Shown here in pieces: positions 38,751 through 45,060 of a DNA stretch of 48,802 nucleotides. The notes under the pieces were generated by a model. That model saw only the letters and a list, made by a program, of their open reading frames with translations. It was not told where the DNA came from and did no database searches. Each line of letters begins with the position of its first letter. Position 1 is the stretch's first letter. Origin of the DNA: Candidatus Sabulitectum sp. (lineage in GTDB: Bacteria; Fermentibacterota; Fermentibacteria; Fermentibacterales; JCC-6); the NCBI GenBank assembly GCA_023139045.1, contig JAGLOJ010000022.1, positions 1 to 48,802 of the forward strand. The letters run 5' to 3'. The translations under genes and the position numbers were made by a program.

Positions 38751-39440
38751 TTATGGGTACATGTATGGAGAACCCGGCTTTGGCAGCACAGTCACAGCCG
38801 TATTTCTGATGAAAGGGTAGACGATACCGTTGATGTGCAGTGAATCTACTGTGCCTTCCAGGCGCAGCCATACATCGTTTTCAAGGGTATCAATGCAGTT
38901 TGACTCAAAGAAAATCGCCTTCGGAATTGCGTCATTCAGGCAGCAGACAATAAGAAATCTGTAGAGAACCGGTTGTGAGGATGATGTGTTCAACGCGCCC
39001 TCAAGAACCACTTGTCTGCCGAAAACAGATGGATAGTTGTTAAGAAGAATATAAATATCTGTCTGCAGAGTATCTCCGGCAGAAGATGCCAAGTCGGAGC
39101 ATTCTATTGATTCAACCATGGAAACAACTCTTCTTTCAAGAGCGAATGACCCCAGTGTATCTCCCTGATAGAGGAGGAAATAAAGAATAGGGATAAGCAT
39201 AATGGCGGCATTCAGAAGATCTTCTCTGCTCTCATTTTCTTTTGTGGCTATTTTGTTTGAAGAGAGAATTCCAATCACCAGAGTTGCGCATGAAATACAT
39301 CCCAGAAGAAGCAGCGGCCAGAGTCTCCTGGAAAGATACATCATGTATCTGCCATCGCAGAGCAGCCAGAGAAAGGCAGCAAACCAGCACAGGTATACCG
39401 TTGCGGCCAGCATCATGGGAACAGAACGAAACCGCTTCAT
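38751..39440 (-). CDS. TIGR03943/YcgQ-like membrane protein
   Basis: A 229-residue protein with two or three N-terminal membrane helices (VPMMLAATVYLCWFAAFLWLL, WPLLLLGCISCATLVIGIL and AAIMLIPILYFLLYQG), then a soluble domain with YRFLIVCCLNDAIPKAIFF and VWLRLEGTVDSLHINGIVYPF. This is the pattern of the TIGR03943/DUF1980 family (Bacillus YcgQ), whose members pair with a PF03773-type permease. The ATG at 39440 overlaps the permease stop as ATGA; an in-frame ATG at 39530 would extend into the permease gene. The CC motif and acidic residues suggest metal contact, which is inference. Confidence 0.78.
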   Translation of the reverse strand: MKRFRSVPMMLAATVYLCWFAAFLWLLCDGRYMMYLSRRLWPLLLLGCISCATLVIGILSSNKIATKENESREDLLNAAIMLIPILYFLLYQGDTLGSFALERRVVSMVESIECSDLASSAGDTLQTDIYILLNNYPSVFGRQVVLEGALNTSSSQPVLYRFLIVCCLNDAIPKAIFFESNCIDTLENDVWLRLEGTVDSLHINGIVYPFIRNTAVTVLPKPGSPYMYP

Positions 39441-40408
39441 AGAACAGCTCCAATCAGAAGATGCAGCAGAAGAGATGCCAGGAATACTGTCACTGTAATG
39501 CATGGAATCAGAACAAGTATTGTTTTCCATGGGAATACAATTTTGTACATCAGAAGAAGTTTTATATCCAGCATTGGTCCGAAAAGCATGAACGCCAACT
39601 GGGAAGAGAGAGGAAAAAAGGCCTTGCCGAAGGATGCAGCTACAAAAGCGTCACCATCGGCACATATACTGAGAAGGAAAGCCAGAACCATCATTCCAGC
39701 AATGGCCAGTACTGGATTTGAGGCGATGCTGAGTAATGCATTCCTCCCGAAGGCAGATTGCAGCAGTCCTGCAAACAGTGCTCCCATTACGAAGTACTTT
39801 CCCGCTTTCAGTATGTCTTCAGCCGCATGTCTTGATGCACGAATAATTCTTGGTTCCTTTTTATTTCCTTTAATTTCGCATGGGGATGGATTGGAAATGT
39901 CATCTCTGACGATTTTTCCTTTCAGAATTCTGCTTACGATAATGGCAACGGAGACGGCAATAACGTAACCGGCAATCACTCTCAGAACGGGGACCACAGG
40001 GTTGAATTGATAGGCAACTAGAGTTGAAGTGAACACAACAGGGTTTACTACCGGCCCCGCCAGCATATAAGCAAGAGCGGCCTCCGGGGGAATACCTTTG
40101 CGAAGCAATCGGTAAAGAACCGGAATCACAGCACATTCACAGACAGGAAGAACAAGACCGGCAAGTGCGGCGATCATTATGGCCTTCGTCTTTGCATAGC
40201 GCAGCTTTGTAACTGCTGATTCAGGCAGGTATTCTTCAATCAGCCCCCCTGCGATAGCTCCAATGAGCATGAAGGGCAGGGCCTCAAGAACAATACCGGA
40301 AAGACTCAGGAAAGCTGTTCTGATTACCGGCGAGTCTCCAGCGAGAAAAAGCATAGCCAGTGCAACGCACAGGAACAGAATATCCAGTTTAGGCGAGGAG
40401 GATTTCAT
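39437..40408 (-). CDS. permease, PF03773/YcgR-like
   Basis: A 323-residue membrane protein of the predicted permease family PF03773 (COG0701, which includes ArsP and YcgR). About eight to ten helices are seen, with the signature LPVCECAVIPVLYRLLRKGIP (C90, E91, C92) and GPVVNPVV (118-125), and a second copy-like region around ICADGDAFVAASF. The substrate is unknown; relatives move organoarsenicals or metals. The ATG at 40408 overlaps the preceding gene's TGA, and it overlaps the YcgQ-like gene at the other end, so the three genes are tightly coupled. Confidence 0.85.
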   Translation of the reverse strand: MKSSSPKLDILFLCVALAMLFLAGDSPVIRTAFLSLSGIVLEALPFMLIGAIAGGLIEEYLPESAVTKLRYAKTKAIMIAALAGLVLPVCECAVIPVLYRLLRKGIPPEAALAYMLAGPVVNPVVFTSTLVAYQFNPVVPVLRVIAGYVIAVSVAIIVSRILKGKIVRDDISNPSPCEIKGNKKEPRIIRASRHAAEDILKAGKYFVMGALFAGLLQSAFGRNALLSIASNPVLAIAGMMVLAFLLSICADGDAFVAASFGKAFFPLSSQLAFMLFGPMLDIKLLLMYKIVFPWKTILVLIPCITVTVFLASLLLHLLIGAVL

Positions 40409-40779: not shown

Positions 40780-41169
40780 CTATGCGCTGAACAGAGTGTG
40801 CGGGGGAGCTCTTGCCGTTTTTGTCAGGGTGATAGTCAGGTGTGAAACTACTGGAACGCCTGGTGTTGCAGGAGTAACCCGGATTTCAGAAGTCCATGAA
40901 CAGAGGGAATAACTGGTGAATGGCTGGAAGTTCTTGAGCCCTGCGCAGAAAGCGCAGTTGTGGTGATCATGATCATTATGCCGGGTTGCCGGGAAGCTGA
41001 AAAACGACGGGTCTGGAGGGTCTTCGCACTCATGGGAAGAGCAATTCGGACATACCTTTTCATGCTCCTGCTGCGAGTGCAGGTTCTGCATGAACGGCTG
41101 CATTGTCGGGCCCAGGAAAAGCAGCCCCAGAGATGCAGCAAGAGAAAGTAGTCCGGCTATACTCTTCAA
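40780..41169 (-). CDS. Cys/His-rich exported protein, DUF2946-like
   Basis: A 129-residue protein with a signal peptide (LLSLAASLGLLFLG) and two metal-ligand-rich clusters: VCPNCSSHEC and RHNDHDHHNCAFCAGLKNF. A C-terminal TITLTKTARAPPHTLFSA recalls the end of DUF2946-like periplasmic proteins. The start is a TTG at 41169 with GGAG upstream. It lies 30 bases before the small lipoprotein gene of the permease cluster and may deliver or sense a metal ion in the periplasm; this is inference. Confidence 0.6.
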   Translation of the reverse strand: MKSIAGLLSLAASLGLLFLGPTMQPFMQNLHSQQEHEKVCPNCSSHECEDPPDPSFFSFPATRHNDHDHHNCAFCAGLKNFQPFTSYSLCSWTSEIRVTPATPGVPVVSHLTITLTKTARAPPHTLFSA

Positions 41170-41302
41170 AGAAAGTCTCCAGCAGGTGAAAAGTCTTTCG
41201 TTTTTCGATCAGTCAAGTGAGCTGTGAATCCGGCAGACTGGCAATATACAGAACTGACGAGTTTGGAAAAAGGATGTCTTTCCGTAAACAAAGCAACGAC
41301 AC

Positions 41303-43402
41303 TCACTCTTTCCCTGCCACACCTGCTTCATCAAAAGATGCCATCTCTCTCATAATTCTGCATGCGGCAGCGGTAATATCTATGGTAAGAGCTGCGCCGG
41401 TCCCTTCTCCCAGTCTCATGTTCAGGTCAAGTACAGCGGTAAGTCCCATGTGGTTCAGAGCGGCTTCATGACCGACCTCTACGGATTTATGGCCGGCAAT
41501 GAAATAGTGAATGACATCAGGATCAAGGGTAAACGCTATCAATCCCGCAGCCGTGGAAATTAATCCATCAAGAACTATTGCACAGCCTTTTTCGGCAGCG
41601 GCAAGAGCAGCCCCTGCCATTCCGGCAATCTCAAAGCCCCCAACACAGGAGAGAATATCCAATGCGTTATCCTTGTCGGGGTTATGAAACGTGAGAGCCT
41701 TCTCCAGAACTTTTATTTTGTGATCCAGTCCCTGATCATCAATCCCGGTTCCCCTCCCTGTGCATTCTGCGGGAGAGACACCGGTAATGGTGCTGATAAT
41801 TGCAGTTGCAGTTGTTGTATTTGCAATTCCCATTTCGCCAAGTCCCAGAATATCGATTTTTCCCGACTCATATTGAGATCTGAATACCTCAGCCCCTGCT
41901 TCGATTGCCCGGAGGGCTTCAGCCTTTGTCATTGCCCGTTCGAGAGCAAAATTTCTTGTACCCTCTGCTATACGTTTGTGGATCAAATCGTGATTAGAGT
42001 TGACAGTGATGGGACCTTTGACCCCGATATCTATGATAGAGAGGTTTATGTTGTTGTGTCTGCTTAATGCATTAATGGCAGCACCGCCATTCAGGAAGTT
42101 CTGAACCATCTGCCGGGTTACCTCTTGAGGGAAGGCTGAGACTCCTTCTTCGGCAATACCGTGATCAGCTGCAAAGACGAAAAGAGATTTAGAAGATATT
42201 TCAGGATTAAGGCTGTTTTGAATAAGACTCATTTTTACAGCCAGCTCTTCCAGAATACCCAGAGCACCAAGTGGTTTTGTTTTGTTATCGATCTTCTCCT
42301 GAGCCTCTGCACGCAAATCTTCTGACGGCTTTGCAATGCTGCAGTTGTCTGTTATTCCCGATTGTACACATGCGCTCTGTTCTAAAGGTGTGGAATCTCT
42401 GTGGTGCAGCAGATTTTTCACCCTGGCTTTTGTCTCTTCACTGAAGTCGATGATATACTTATACCGCTCGCCTGCAAGAATGGAAGGGAGAAGAATTTCC
42501 ACCTCGGCAGGAGAGATGGTACTTTCGATAAGTGATTCCAGTGATGCATGGATTCTGCCAATGAGAGCCAGCCCGTTTATCATATCGATTTTTGTCAGAC
42601 CGTATGAGCCATTGATAGAGAGTTCTTTGTAGTGAACAAGATTGAGCAGATTGGATTCGATCTGTTCATTTTTATCCAATCCACTGAAGAAGACGATTCT
42701 TGCCCCTTTTGCTGTTTTCGGGATTCCGGCCATAAAGGCAGTGGGATCAGAACAGGCATTCAGTATGCAGTTAAAACGGCTGTCTTCAGTGGTTTTGACG
42801 ATGTCAAAACTGCCTTTTTCACTGAAGACGAGTGCCTTGCGAATCTTTGTCTCATTTTTCTCGATAATGGTGGGCCTTGCACCATACTGCAGTGCAAGCA
42901 TCGCGGTAAGAATTCCTACGGTACCGGCACCGTAGATAAGCAGACGATCATCTTTTGCCAGATCTATCTTTCTGAAGGCATTTACAATGCATCCTGCAGG
43001 TTCCGCGAAAGTTGCCACCGGCGAGGAAAGCTCTTCCGGCACGGGAATCAGGCAACTGAAGGGAACGGTAATTACATCTGAAAATCCCCCGTCTCTGTGG
43101 AAGCCGATTATCTCCATATCATCACAGAGATTCTCATTGCCCTCTTTGCAGAAGGAACATTCTCCGCAGGCAATGCCCGGCCAGATGACATAGCGTACGT
43201 TCTCTTTCAATGCGACGATCTCATGACCCGGCACTCTTGGCAGGTGAAGATCGCGGTGGCCTTCACTCCACATCTTCGCATCGCTTCTGCAGATCGCACA
43301 GTGTGAGACCTTAAGTTCAACCCATCCTTCGGGAGCAGCCTTCACTGCATTCCGCTCCGGGGAGAGATGCAGTTTTTTCAATCCGTTGAGGCTGATTTTC
43401 AC
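41303..43402 (-). CDS. cobT: alcohol dehydrogenase-CobT fusion
   Basis: A 699-residue two-domain protein. Residues 1 to about 330 are a zinc-dependent medium-chain dehydrogenase: catalytic-zinc ligands near C38 (CAICRSD) and H60-E61, structural zinc C79-C82-C85-C93, and a GAGTVG NAD-binding loop (158-163). Residues about 350-699 are a complete CobT (nicotinate-nucleotide:dimethylbenzimidazole phosphoribosyltransferase): KTKPLGALGILEELA (374-388), AADHGIAEEGVSAFP (411-425), GEMGIANTTTATA (522-534), DGLISTAAG (612-620) and LGEGTGAAL with Glu666 at the catalytic position. CobT activates the cobamide lower ligand as an alpha-ribotide. The linker (roughly 330-370) is polar. The gene ends the riboswitch-controlled operon and overlaps the small gene upstream by four bases. 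A fused dehydrogenase suggests redox processing of a ligand precursor. Confidence 0.9.
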   Translation of the reverse strand: MKISLNGLKKLHLSPERNAVKAAPEGWVELKVSHCAICRSDAKMWSEGHRDLHLPRVPGHEIVALKENVRYVIWPGIACGECSFCKEGNENLCDDMEIIGFHRDGGFSDVITVPFSCLIPVPEELSSPVATFAEPAGCIVNAFRKIDLAKDDRLLIYGAGTVGILTAMLALQYGARPTIIEKNETKIRKALVFSEKGSFDIVKTTEDSRFNCILNACSDPTAFMAGIPKTAKGARIVFFSGLDKNEQIESNLLNLVHYKELSINGSYGLTKIDMINGLALIGRIHASLESLIESTISPAEVEILLPSILAGERYKYIIDFSEETKARVKNLLHHRDSTPLEQSACVQSGITDNCSIAKPSEDLRAEAQEKIDNKTKPLGALGILEELAVKMSLIQNSLNPEISSKSLFVFAADHGIAEEGVSAFPQEVTRQMVQNFLNGGAAINALSRHNNINLSIIDIGVKGPITVNSNHDLIHKRIAEGTRNFALERAMTKAEALRAIEAGAEVFRSQYESGKIDILGLGEMGIANTTTATAIISTITGVSPAECTGRGTGIDDQGLDHKIKVLEKALTFHNPDKDNALDILSCVGGFEIAGMAGAALAAAEKGCAIVLDGLISTAAGLIAFTLDPDVIHYFIAGHKSVEVGHEAALNHMGLTAVLDLNMRLGEGTGAALTIDITAAACRIMREMASFDEAGVAGKE

Positions 43403-43602
43403 TGTTCAAAATCCTCCTCTAAAATGGTAAGCTTCACGATCTTCAGGGTGTCAAGTTCTTTTCCGAGTGTGCGAAAAGAGGTTCTCACCTTTTCCACTTC
43501 AGAGAGAGGATAGACAGAAGCTCTGTTCATATCGGTGAGCTGGTAGCCTTCTTCCAACAGTCGGATATAGTTATGCCTGTGTTTTATGCAGAGCAGTTCC
43601 AT
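43399..43602 (-). CDS. 67-residue protein of unknown function
   Basis: A small protein between the TrpD-like gene and the ADH-CobT fusion gene, overlapping the latter's start by four bases and one base away from the former's stop. It begins MELLCIKHRHNYIRLLEEGY and ends in an acidic DFEQ tail; no signal peptide, membrane segment or known motif. Its position between coupled genes makes it likely to be real. A role in substrate handling is inference only. Confidence 0.6.
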   Translation of the reverse strand: MELLCIKHRHNYIRLLEEGYQLTDMNRASVYPLSEVEKVRTSFRTLGKELDTLKIVKLTILEEDFEQ

Positions 43603-43603
43603 T

Positions 43604-44710
43604 TTAGTTTGCCCTCAATCGGTTGAGTTTTTCCATTCCTGAAGATCCATCCCTGTTCTGGGCAGTTACCCACCGGCAGAGCGTTTCAGTTGCGCCGCTG
43701 GATTCAAGTATTGCGAGAGCTTTTTCTGTACCTGCTTTAATTGAATCACTCCTCTGTGTTATGTAGAAGATAAGTGCTGCATTAAGTGCAGCAGCATCCA
43801 GACGCACCTTCTCTCCACGCCCTTCCAGCAGTTCAACAAACCGCTTTCCCTCCAGAGAGATATCACCGGAAGAGAGGAGAGCCTCCGGTGCATGGGTAAC
43901 AAGCCCCGCATCTTCCGGTCTGAAAGAGAATTCTGATATGGTTCCATCTTCATGGAGCTCGGCACAGAAGGTAACCCCGGAGACAGAAGCCTCATCCATA
44001 CCGGCTGTCATGTTGTCTATGGTGCCATGCATGACCAGGGCTTTCTTATACCCGATTTCTTTCATTACCTCAACAACAGGTCGAATCATCTCTCTGGAGT
44101 AAACACCTCTTACGCCTATATCCACCTTCACCGGACTGGCCAGAGAAGCGGCAATATTCAGCGTGGAACCAAATGAAATTTGTGACAGTATCCGCCCCAG
44201 GGCCACAGGGTGTATTTTCGGACTCATTCCATTAAAAAGAGCCATGCATGATGTTTTAAGACTTGCTGCGGCAAGTTCTGCATCACACTCCACATCAACA
44301 CCAAGGGCTTCTGCCATATCGACTGTGCCGATTTTACTGGTCAGTGCCCGCGCGCCATGACGTGCCATGAAGATTCCGTCAGAAGCAGCAATAAGTGATG
44401 CACCGGTACTGATGTTGAACGTCTTGAATGTATCCATGCCGGTGCCGCAGTTTTCTACTATCGGGCCATCAATATCAGTTGAGACCTTCACTGTGTCATT
44501 CTCGTAAATAGCCTCCCAGGAACCGGCAATTTCCTCTTTTGTTTCACCCTTTGCGGTAAGTGCCGCAAGAAATGCTCCCTGCTGCATCTCTGAGGTCTCA
44601 TTGTTCAGAAGTACTGAGAAAGCATCGCAGGCCTCTTGCCGTGTCAGATCCTCTTTGTTTATGAGCCGTGTAATGCAGATGCCAAAGTCACTGATATTGT
44701 TTTCAGACAT
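43604..44710 (-). CDS. TrpD-like phosphoribosyltransferase
   Basis: A 368-residue member of the anthranilate phosphoribosyltransferase (TrpD) fold, which uses PRPP. NCGTGMDTFKTFNIST (87-102) matches the PRPP-binding loop, and GMDEASVSG (237-245) keeps the two metal-binding acidic residues. RHGARALTSK (117-126) stands for TrpD's KHGNRSVSSK, so the Asn that contacts anthranilate is Ala, and the segment where TrpD has its PAHHPA motif reads LFNGMSPKIHP. It is therefore unlikely to be a genuine tryptophan enzyme. The ATG at 44710 follows an AGGAGGA site; longer frames upstream run into the riboswitch. First gene after the cobalamin riboswitch, upstream of the CobT fusion. Confidence 0.85.
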   Translation of the reverse strand: MSENNISDFGICITRLINKEDLTRQEACDAFSVLLNNETSEMQQGAFLAALTAKGETKEEIAGSWEAIYENDTVKVSTDIDGPIVENCGTGMDTFKTFNISTGASLIAASDGIFMARHGARALTSKIGTVDMAEALGVDVECDAELAAASLKTSCMALFNGMSPKIHPVALGRILSQISFGSTLNIAASLASPVKVDIGVRGVYSREMIRPVVEVMKEIGYKKALVMHGTIDNMTAGMDEASVSGVTFCAELHEDGTISEFSFRPEDAGLVTHAPEALLSSGDISLEGKRFVELLEGRGEKVRLDAAALNAALIFYITQRSDSIKAGTEKALAILESSGATETLCRWVTAQNRDGSSGMEKLNRLRAN

Positions 44711-44766
44711 GTGTCCTCCTGAATTTTGTGTGTCTTCAGAGCCGCAGAGAGGTTTGTAAGGGTATG

Positions 44767-44829
44767 AAAAAAACGCCCTTGGATTGTATCTCTGGCTCGG
44801 CCGACACGGCCAAGTTAAGATACAGGCGT
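44767..44829 (-). terminator. riboswitch-associated intrinsic terminator
   Basis: Read on the minus strand, ACGCC and TGTATCT pair with AGATACA and GGCGT, with an inner GGCCG/CGGCC hairpin, and seven T's follow. The structure lies between the cobalamin aptamer and the trpD-like start, as expected of a transcription-terminating expression platform. CTTGG and CCAAG inside it could form an alternative fold. Confidence 0.75.
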
Positions 44830-44861
44830 CATCCAGCGGGTGGCCCATATACAAAAACAAC

Positions 44862-45024
44862 AACAAGGCAGGCTTTCTGACTTACGGATCATCCTACTCA
44901 CCGCGCCTTCCCGGTTCCCCAGTGGCATAATGCAATGCGGCTTTCGTCTTCGAATACAGCAATGGCTGGATTGTGACGGATTCACACCGTCTTTCCTTTT
45001 TTGGCAGTACCAACTGCCACACCT
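44862..45024 (-). promoter_or_regulatory. cobalamin riboswitch
   Basis: The minus-strand transcript contains the conserved B12 box AAGTCAGAAAGCCTGCCTT (44865-44883). The aptamer core CCACTGGGGAACCGGGAAGG lies 5' of it, and GACGGTGTGAATCCGTC represents the 5' GGTG-AAUC segment. It binds adenosylcobalamin or a related cobamide and should repress the downstream genes when cobamide is plentiful. It sits directly upstream of the terminator and the trpD-like/ADH-CobT operon. The exact 5' end is estimated from the putative promoter. Confidence 0.9.
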
Positions 45025-45029
45025 CGCGA

Positions 45030-45060
45030 ATTAGATAACAAACCTGGATGAAAGACGCAA
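45030..45060 (-). promoter_or_regulatory. possible promoter of the riboswitch operon
   Basis: On the minus strand TTGCGT (45055-45060) and TCTAAT (45030-45035) are separated by 19 bases, immediately upstream of the aptamer. The -35 match is weak. Confidence 0.4.

Follow-up and report, generated by a model that had tools for sequence, protein, structure and literature searches.

Which pathway does a cobalamin riboswitch control when the genes behind it fit no familiar cobamide operon? The question is raised by contig JAGLOJ010000022.1 (assembly GCA_023139045.1) of Candidatus Sabulitectum sp., analysed here over its 48,802 nt (the window; the host genome is G000, and other genomes and loci carry the prefixes G and L). 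In this window, a predicted corrinoid-responsive switch stands ahead of genes for a TrpD-like phosphoribosyltransferase, a small protein and a dehydrogenase fused to CobT (ADH-CobT). We find that this gene set is conserved but, as far as found, undescribed, and that there is good support for its link to cobamides. The case is built on gene content, conservation, riboswitch association, CobT linkage and changed acceptor-site positions in the TrpD-like enzyme, each observed directly. Because the set is linked both to CobT and to the riboswitch, we tentatively read it, with a confidence just short of evenly balanced, as an accessory module, under corrinoid control, for assembly of the cobamide nucleotide loop, one that would make or activate a lower ligand and work with CobT.

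Predicted riboswitch and probable operon

The aptamer lies at positions 44850–45041 on the minus strand, as do all window genes described below. It covers the RF00174 covariance model in full (1–189 of 189), scores 83.2 bits (E 4e-19; gathering score 31.5) and is the sole Rfam match above gathering score in the whole window; by this class membership, it is a predicted corrinoid-responsive switch. The space up to the first gene holds a terminator-like hairpin and a U tract (44765–44830, minus strand, approximate limits taken from the dot-bracket fold), which would form the expression platform. The fold of 44762–44849 has a minimum free energy of −32.7 kcal/mol (z −3.1) and was matched by 1 of 200 shuffles. 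The hairpin is absent from the list of a simple consensus terminator scan, whose one site lies on the opposite strand inside the aptamer region and is about what chance would give (1 found, 0.6 expected).

The TrpD-like gene (43604–44707) has an ATG start with AGGAGG ahead of it and encodes 367 residues; the list of open reading frames (ORFs) also allows an alternative TTG start at 44866. It is followed by the small gene of a conserved family (43399–43602, 67 residues) and by the ADH-CobT fusion gene (41303–43402, GTG start, 699 residues). Since a 1-nt gap separates the first two genes and a 4-nt overlap joins the last two, the three genes very probably form one operon. The original prediction of an aptamer with a terminator ahead of three genes is thus borne out by the RF00174 score and the z value of the hairpin. 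Its overlaps of 1–4 bases apply to the second junction and not to the first, and the interval it gave for the operon, 43399–45024, leaves out the ADH-CobT gene named in its own title.

Downstream of ADH-CobT, the window carries an ArsP_1-type permease gene and a TIGR03943-like partner that scores below the TIGR03943 cut-off (38751–40408). No terminator was found past ADH-CobT in the examined interval 41100–41400, and read-through into the permease genes is therefore possible. The GC content of the module (0.480) is close to that of the window (0.486); for want of a contrast, recent foreign DNA was rejected as an explanation, although the family is seen in only G000 of 42 genomes searched in the host's order.

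A TrpD-like enzyme with a changed acceptor site

The first gene product combines the domains PF00591 and PF02885 and passes the TrpD profile TIGR01245 (225 bits, cut-off 199). Its AlphaFold2 (AF2) model has a mean predicted local distance difference test (pLDDT) value of 84.6 and resembles TrpD structures; a Foldseek comparison with 1khd gives template modelling (TM) scores of 0.79/0.87 and E 4e-20. Identity to the better TrpD matches in the host-order search is 30–34%. We scored profile-picked ORFs, 22 full-length TrpD-like members and 11 canonical proteins, with L040, L044, L045 and L046 left out, against a family profile built from 8 of the 22 members. TrpD-like members reach 425–691 bits and canonical proteins 151–242, and in the tree of the same proteins the two groups are separated with split supports of 99–100.

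The separation extends to individual residues. In 22/22 members, M replaces G in GTGGD, A or S replaces N in HGN, G replaces the R/K before TxFN and S replaces P in LLGP, and in 21/22 the G of LLGP has become A. At these positions, the canonical proteins hold G in 11, N in 10, R in 10 and K in 1, P in 11 and G in 11, respectively. The Asn of HGN, the Arg before TxFN and the GP of LLGP are what we take to be anthranilate contacts. Titles of Protein Data Bank (PDB) entries among the structure matches mention N138A and R193L variants, which may concern the HGN and TxFN positions. A further loop reads FAPxxH in most canonical TrpD proteins and FNGxS in the TrpD-like family. The PRPP (phosphoribosyl pyrophosphate)/Mg positions D92, N98, S100, D238 and E239 are retained in 22/22 members, in line with the PRPP-using enzyme of the original prediction. 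Because these positions are kept, the anthranilate-site positions are changed and the AF2 model is TrpD-like, the enzyme very probably still uses PRPP with an acceptor other than anthranilate.

A tryptophan enzyme of the ordinary kind that has come to stand behind a riboswitch would account for the TrpD fold and for the score above the TIGR01245 cut-off. Against it stand the family-wide replacements at the anthranilate site, the failure to find a second TrpD homologue in G000 and the absence of TrpC matches from G000 and G066, though 7/9 of the module genomes tested have TrpC, the sole other pathway gene tested in G000. With neither TrpC nor a second TrpD in G000, the host is very unlikely to use the enzyme for tryptophan synthesis; the lack of TrpC and the altered acceptor site lead us to set this explanation aside as hardly credible. 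A score above the TrpD profile cut-off is thus, for some proteins, probably no mark of a tryptophan enzyme. A plasmid collection holds 97 matching records, all below 60% identity, and among ten listed (31–33%) six are annotated trpD; a PHROGs search gave weak matches only.

Recurrence of the gene set

Searches with the TrpD-like protein and its family profile extend the set to 24 further genomes, mostly with the same partners and riboswitch, so that the module comprises 25 loci in 25 genomes that carry the TrpD-like family. The TrpD-like protein, used as query in a first scan of species genomes, matched 8 loci at 47–65% identity, in a Salinivirgaceae, a Spirochaetes, several Firmicutes and one other bacterium, with the same partners adjoining. 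A family profile search (E at most 1e-85) then found the family in 11/348 genomes of the phylum of G061, 3/247 of the phylum of G067, 5/391 of the class of G065 and 1/345 of the phylum of G060, each count including the centre genome. The 25 genomes are these carriers, the window and four further first-scan genomes. Cultured carriers include Alkalibacter mobilis.

In 22/25 loci, the first module gene is immediately preceded by a same-strand RF00174 aptamer, at distances of −188 to 325 nt, the negative values arising where an open frame is drawn too far upstream. The three loci without an adjoining aptamer are L056 and L060, which sit within longer cobamide gene runs, and L096, truncated at a contig end; a lax aptamer search of L056, L060 and L063 gave no match. 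In the genome of L063, the aptamer sits on L100; the two loci probably carry opposite ends of one gene that falls on two contigs. A dehydrogenase of one subfamily is adjacent in 24/25 loci, and the small protein is intact in 19/25. Four genomes (window, L056, L063, L098) have the dehydrogenase and CobT as one fusion, and three loci (L060, L062, L095) have CobT next to the module. The order TrpD-small-ADH(-CobT) is found in the window, L056 and the loci of the Spirochaetes phylum, and the order ADH-TrpD(-small)(-CobT) in all remaining loci. Interrupted frames occur in the TrpD-like gene of L097 (2342–3388) and the small gene of L059 (11100–11300), and represent either degraded copies or assembly errors.

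Closer to the host, neither ADH-CobT nor TrpD-like matches were found in 12 other genomes of its genus. G015 and G036, of the host's order, have TrpD matches at the canonical level only, and unfused CobT is matched in G030, G033 and G038 of the wider order.

Dehydrogenase, CobT and small protein

The fusion protein consists of a Zn-dependent medium-chain dehydrogenase (about residues 1–345; PF08240 above and PF00107 slightly below the curated cut-off) and CobT (about residues 356–697; PF02277 with E 4e-129, TIGR03160 with 434.2 bits against a cut-off of 319.3). The dehydrogenase family keeps its Zn ligands and NAD motif, the latter with the acidic residue typical for NAD use: E61 and E134 are found in 24/24 members, H60 in 23/24, the structural Cys residues in 23–24/24, and C38 is invariant in 9/9. 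K43 and R56 are likewise invariant (24/24) and could, judged from sequence, bind a charged substrate.

The CobT part retains the motifs GVSAFPQEVT and LGEGTGAA in alignment with 1wx1 and 1j33, the CobT structures that score highest against it (249 bits); ArsA (4hdk_A) ranks third with 228 bits, ahead of 1d0s. No position clearly separates CobT of module genomes from that of non-module genomes, a comparison that rests on plain CobT motif lines only, M_L106, M_L127, M_L056fus, C_L111, C_L115 and C_L123 being misframed.

The small protein aligns with 14 relatives. The window protein has no Pfam match, and 2/15 members match PF24370 weakly (best E 0.0055). AF2 predicts a beta-beta-beta-alpha-beta fold (pLDDT 93.7), for which a structure search of the PDB gave no match with E <0.5; among predicted viral structures, the nearest (best E 2.7e-3) belong to uncharacterised phage proteins.

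Association with cobamide genes

CobT is present in 18/21 module genomes and in 11/32 genomes without the module (Fisher p 2.7e-4, uncorrected for kinship); among those counted as Firmicutes, the figures are 12/15 and 8/20 (p 0.037). The 32 non-module genomes are the first-listed 20 and 12 misses of two profile searches, and since the groups are unmatched and the genomes related, these p values are a guide only. The later-found G718, G929, G963 and G1017 are left out of the 21-genome counts, which apply to CobT and BzaA/B.

In three loci, the module lies among cobamide genes. L056 carries cbi genes, btuR, the TrpD-like gene, the small gene, ADH::CobT, a second CobT gene, cobQ and a cobD-type gene; CbiA/CobB, CbiD, CbiL and CobQ exceed their NCBIfam cut-offs, BtuR and the CobD-type protein fall slightly below, and the remaining cbi names are our reading. 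L060 has the order cobD, cbiB, ADH, TrpD-like, CobT; reading a GHMP-kinase-like ORF there as PduX was dropped, as it had no NCBIfam match at 1e-15. In L095 (3550–11069), ADH and TrpD-like genes, two BzaB/ThiC-like genes and CobT follow a cobalamin aptamer, and the run continues with an energy-coupling factor (ECF)-transporter S-component-like gene and an AIR-synthase-related gene. At L098 (13631–15136), near the ADH::CobT module locus, a second CobT gene has its own cobalamin aptamer (49.5 bits).

The runs of L056 and L060 bear on two rival explanations. In the first, the dehydrogenase would make aminopropanol, for example from aminoacetone, and replace the decarboxylation of threonine phosphate in linker synthesis; threonine 3-dehydrogenase structures are indeed among its relatives. 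CobD, however, scores above its cut-off in the run of L060 (TIGR01140, 323/291), and G000 has a CobD-type aminotransferase domain fused to CobQ, which makes linker synthesis less likely. As this explanation also leaves the PRPP enzyme without a role, we regard it as improbable, though not to the degree of the tryptophan enzyme. In the second, the nucleotide loop of foreign cobamides would be broken down or recycled, after which CobT would install another base. Riboswitch control is equally compatible with such salvage, and the host keeps late genes and uptake genes in one operon; in L056, however, the module stands behind genes of de novo corrin synthesis. We consider salvage or remodelling an unlikely alternative.

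The operon in question lies on contig C173 of G000 (L053), a genome of 3.7 Mb that is 93.5% complete and has four cobalamin aptamers above threshold and one below. There, a riboswitch precedes cobC-cobU-cobS-cobD::cobQ-cbiB-btuFCD; the CobC-type phosphatase, CobD::CobQ and CbiB are confirmed by Pfam, and the other names are read from translations. The fusion (L053:3964–6561) is an 865-residue class I/II aminotransferase, CobD-type by context, joined to CobQ/CbiP domains. The late cobamide steps encoded there need a lower-ligand ribotide, and the only CobT match in G000 is the window's ADH-CobT. Two further aptamers of G000 precede genes of another kind. On C158 (L052:4730–6774), an aptamer of 97 bits is followed by genes for a secreted protein that has a Por sorting tail and matches DUF5074 and SGL below cut-off, and for a 267-residue protein without Pfam match, a pair that we presume may bind corrinoids at the surface, as BtuG does. 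On C124 (L055:3893–6776), an aptamer of 28.1 bits, below the gathering score, precedes a TonB-dependent receptor and a 337-residue protein without Pfam match.

Proposed function

The module genes would presumably be expressed when corrinoids are scarce, the sign of the switch being one that we infer, along with substrate, order of reactions, intermediate and product. The TrpD-like enzyme would use PRPP to phosphoribosylate an acceptor, aromatic or heteroaromatic, other than anthranilate, and the NAD-type Zn dehydrogenase would oxidise or reduce the product or its ribosyl part. The small protein may act as a regulator or as an accessory subunit. CobT, which in the window is fused to the dehydrogenase, would form the alpha-ribotide of the resulting lower ligand, and the late enzymes of C173 (CobU, CobS, CobC, CobD::CobQ, CbiB) would build this ribotide into the cobamide. 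We see a possible, somewhat less secure extension of this scheme, a further lower-ligand route beside BluB, Bza and phenol/ArsAB, in which an aromatic precursor is ribosylated from PRPP and reshaped by the dehydrogenase before CobT acts. Tryptophan synthesis, which draws ribose carbons into a ring, offers an analogy. If true, such a route could explain some of the cobamide producers for which no lower-ligand genes have been assigned.

Several observations weigh against a role in making or activating a lower ligand. (i) NCBI's own rule names the phosphoribosyltransferase TrpD, and the fused CobT, with its ordinary motifs, gives no sign of an unusual base. (ii) The set is not uniform: no small protein was detected in five of the 25 loci (L057, L060, L089, L095, L097), its frame is broken in L059, and a single genome among those searched in the host's order carries the family. 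(iii) CobT was not found in three of the 21 module genomes (G061, G062 and G280, of unstated completeness), and in Firmicutes the locus is mostly a unit of two or three genes with no neighbour that matches the cobamide reference set. (iv) Tandem BzaA/B-like genes occur in 4/21 module genomes (G063, G253, G366, G374), the copies in G061 and G062 being partial or fragmentary and not classed as pairs. The module is therefore not a simple replacement of bza; it would add a second ligand or act at a step common to several ligands.

Two other explanations draw on the same observations. The isolated Firmicutes units would suit a cobalamin-independent backup route for other metabolism, switched on like metE when cobalamin is scarce. 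CobT is, however, fused or adjacent in 7/25 loci, and L056, L060 and L095 lie among cobamide genes; we think a backup role somewhat less probable even than salvage. The occurrence of the module with and without BzaA/B-like genes, and its linkage to CobT, would fit a general helper of CobT: CobT consumes a beta-ribotide, the type of product that TrpD-type enzymes form, and the TrpD-like enzyme might combine PRPP with the nicotinate freed by CobT to remake nicotinate mononucleotide (NaMN) or a different beta-ribotide. A NadC-type quinolinate phosphoribosyltransferase (PF01729), however, scores above 100 bits in 21/25 module genomes including G000, with weak matches in G280, G382, G718 and G963. 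NaMN should therefore be available in most of them, which lowers the case for its supply, and the dehydrogenase would be left without a role; donor supply appears to us about as doubtful as salvage. A part in lower-ligand formation together with CobT is the reading that we carry into the comparison below.

Comparison with known systems

No description of the module was found in the open literature, the subscription literature being mostly outside that scope. The nearest subjects there are the corrinoid operons of D. restrictus, the purinyl cobamide of D. hafniense and a genomic survey of cobamide producers. That survey of 11,000 bacterial species reports that 42% of predicted cobamide producers are without known genes for benzimidazole synthesis or phenolic attachment, and it describes the anaerobic benzimidazole (Bza) and BluB pathways as suppliers of lower ligands to CobT (PMC6461909).

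The original prediction saw no counterpart of the module in the bza, bluB or ars pathways, and the host agrees with it, having no BluB match, one CobT and a ThiC-type protein nearer to ThiC. BluB is above cut-off in 0/25 module genomes, where weaker nitroreductase matches occur in 24 and none in G000, and in 3/14 control genomes. BzaA/B-like pairs share a run with the module once, in L095. The single ThiC-type protein of G000 lies outside the BzaA/B-like clade and scores higher to ThiC than to BzaB models; the models matched included none for BzaF, which this protein may still be. With ArsAB, which activates phenol and p-cresol, the module has CobT homologues in common, and L056 has two tandem CobT domains. 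A tandem-cobT rule of the kind given in PMC6461909 might score that arrangement, ADH::CobT followed by a second CobT (L056:11254–14362), as ArsAB. The host, in contrast, has one CobT only, hence no ArsAB-type tandem, and CobT structures outscore both ArsA and ArsB for the window protein.

The individual enzymes resemble well-known ones more closely than the set does any pathway. Zn medium-chain dehydrogenases (4ej6, threonine 3-dehydrogenase, sorbitol dehydrogenase) share the Zn ligands and NAD motif, whereas the module enzyme forms its own subfamily, marked by K43 and R56 and tied to CobT and TrpD-like genes. TrpD shares fold and PRPP/Mg positions, yet the module enzyme belongs to a separate clade with other anthranilate-site residues and stands in the context of a cobalamin riboswitch and cobamide genes. 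CobT of the module fits the profile and motifs of its family and differs in being fused, in four genomes, behind a Zn dehydrogenase. A riboswitch-linked, CobT-tied set that combines a phosphoribosyltransferase of altered acceptor site with a small protein of no assigned family is a concrete, testable candidate for a step still missing.

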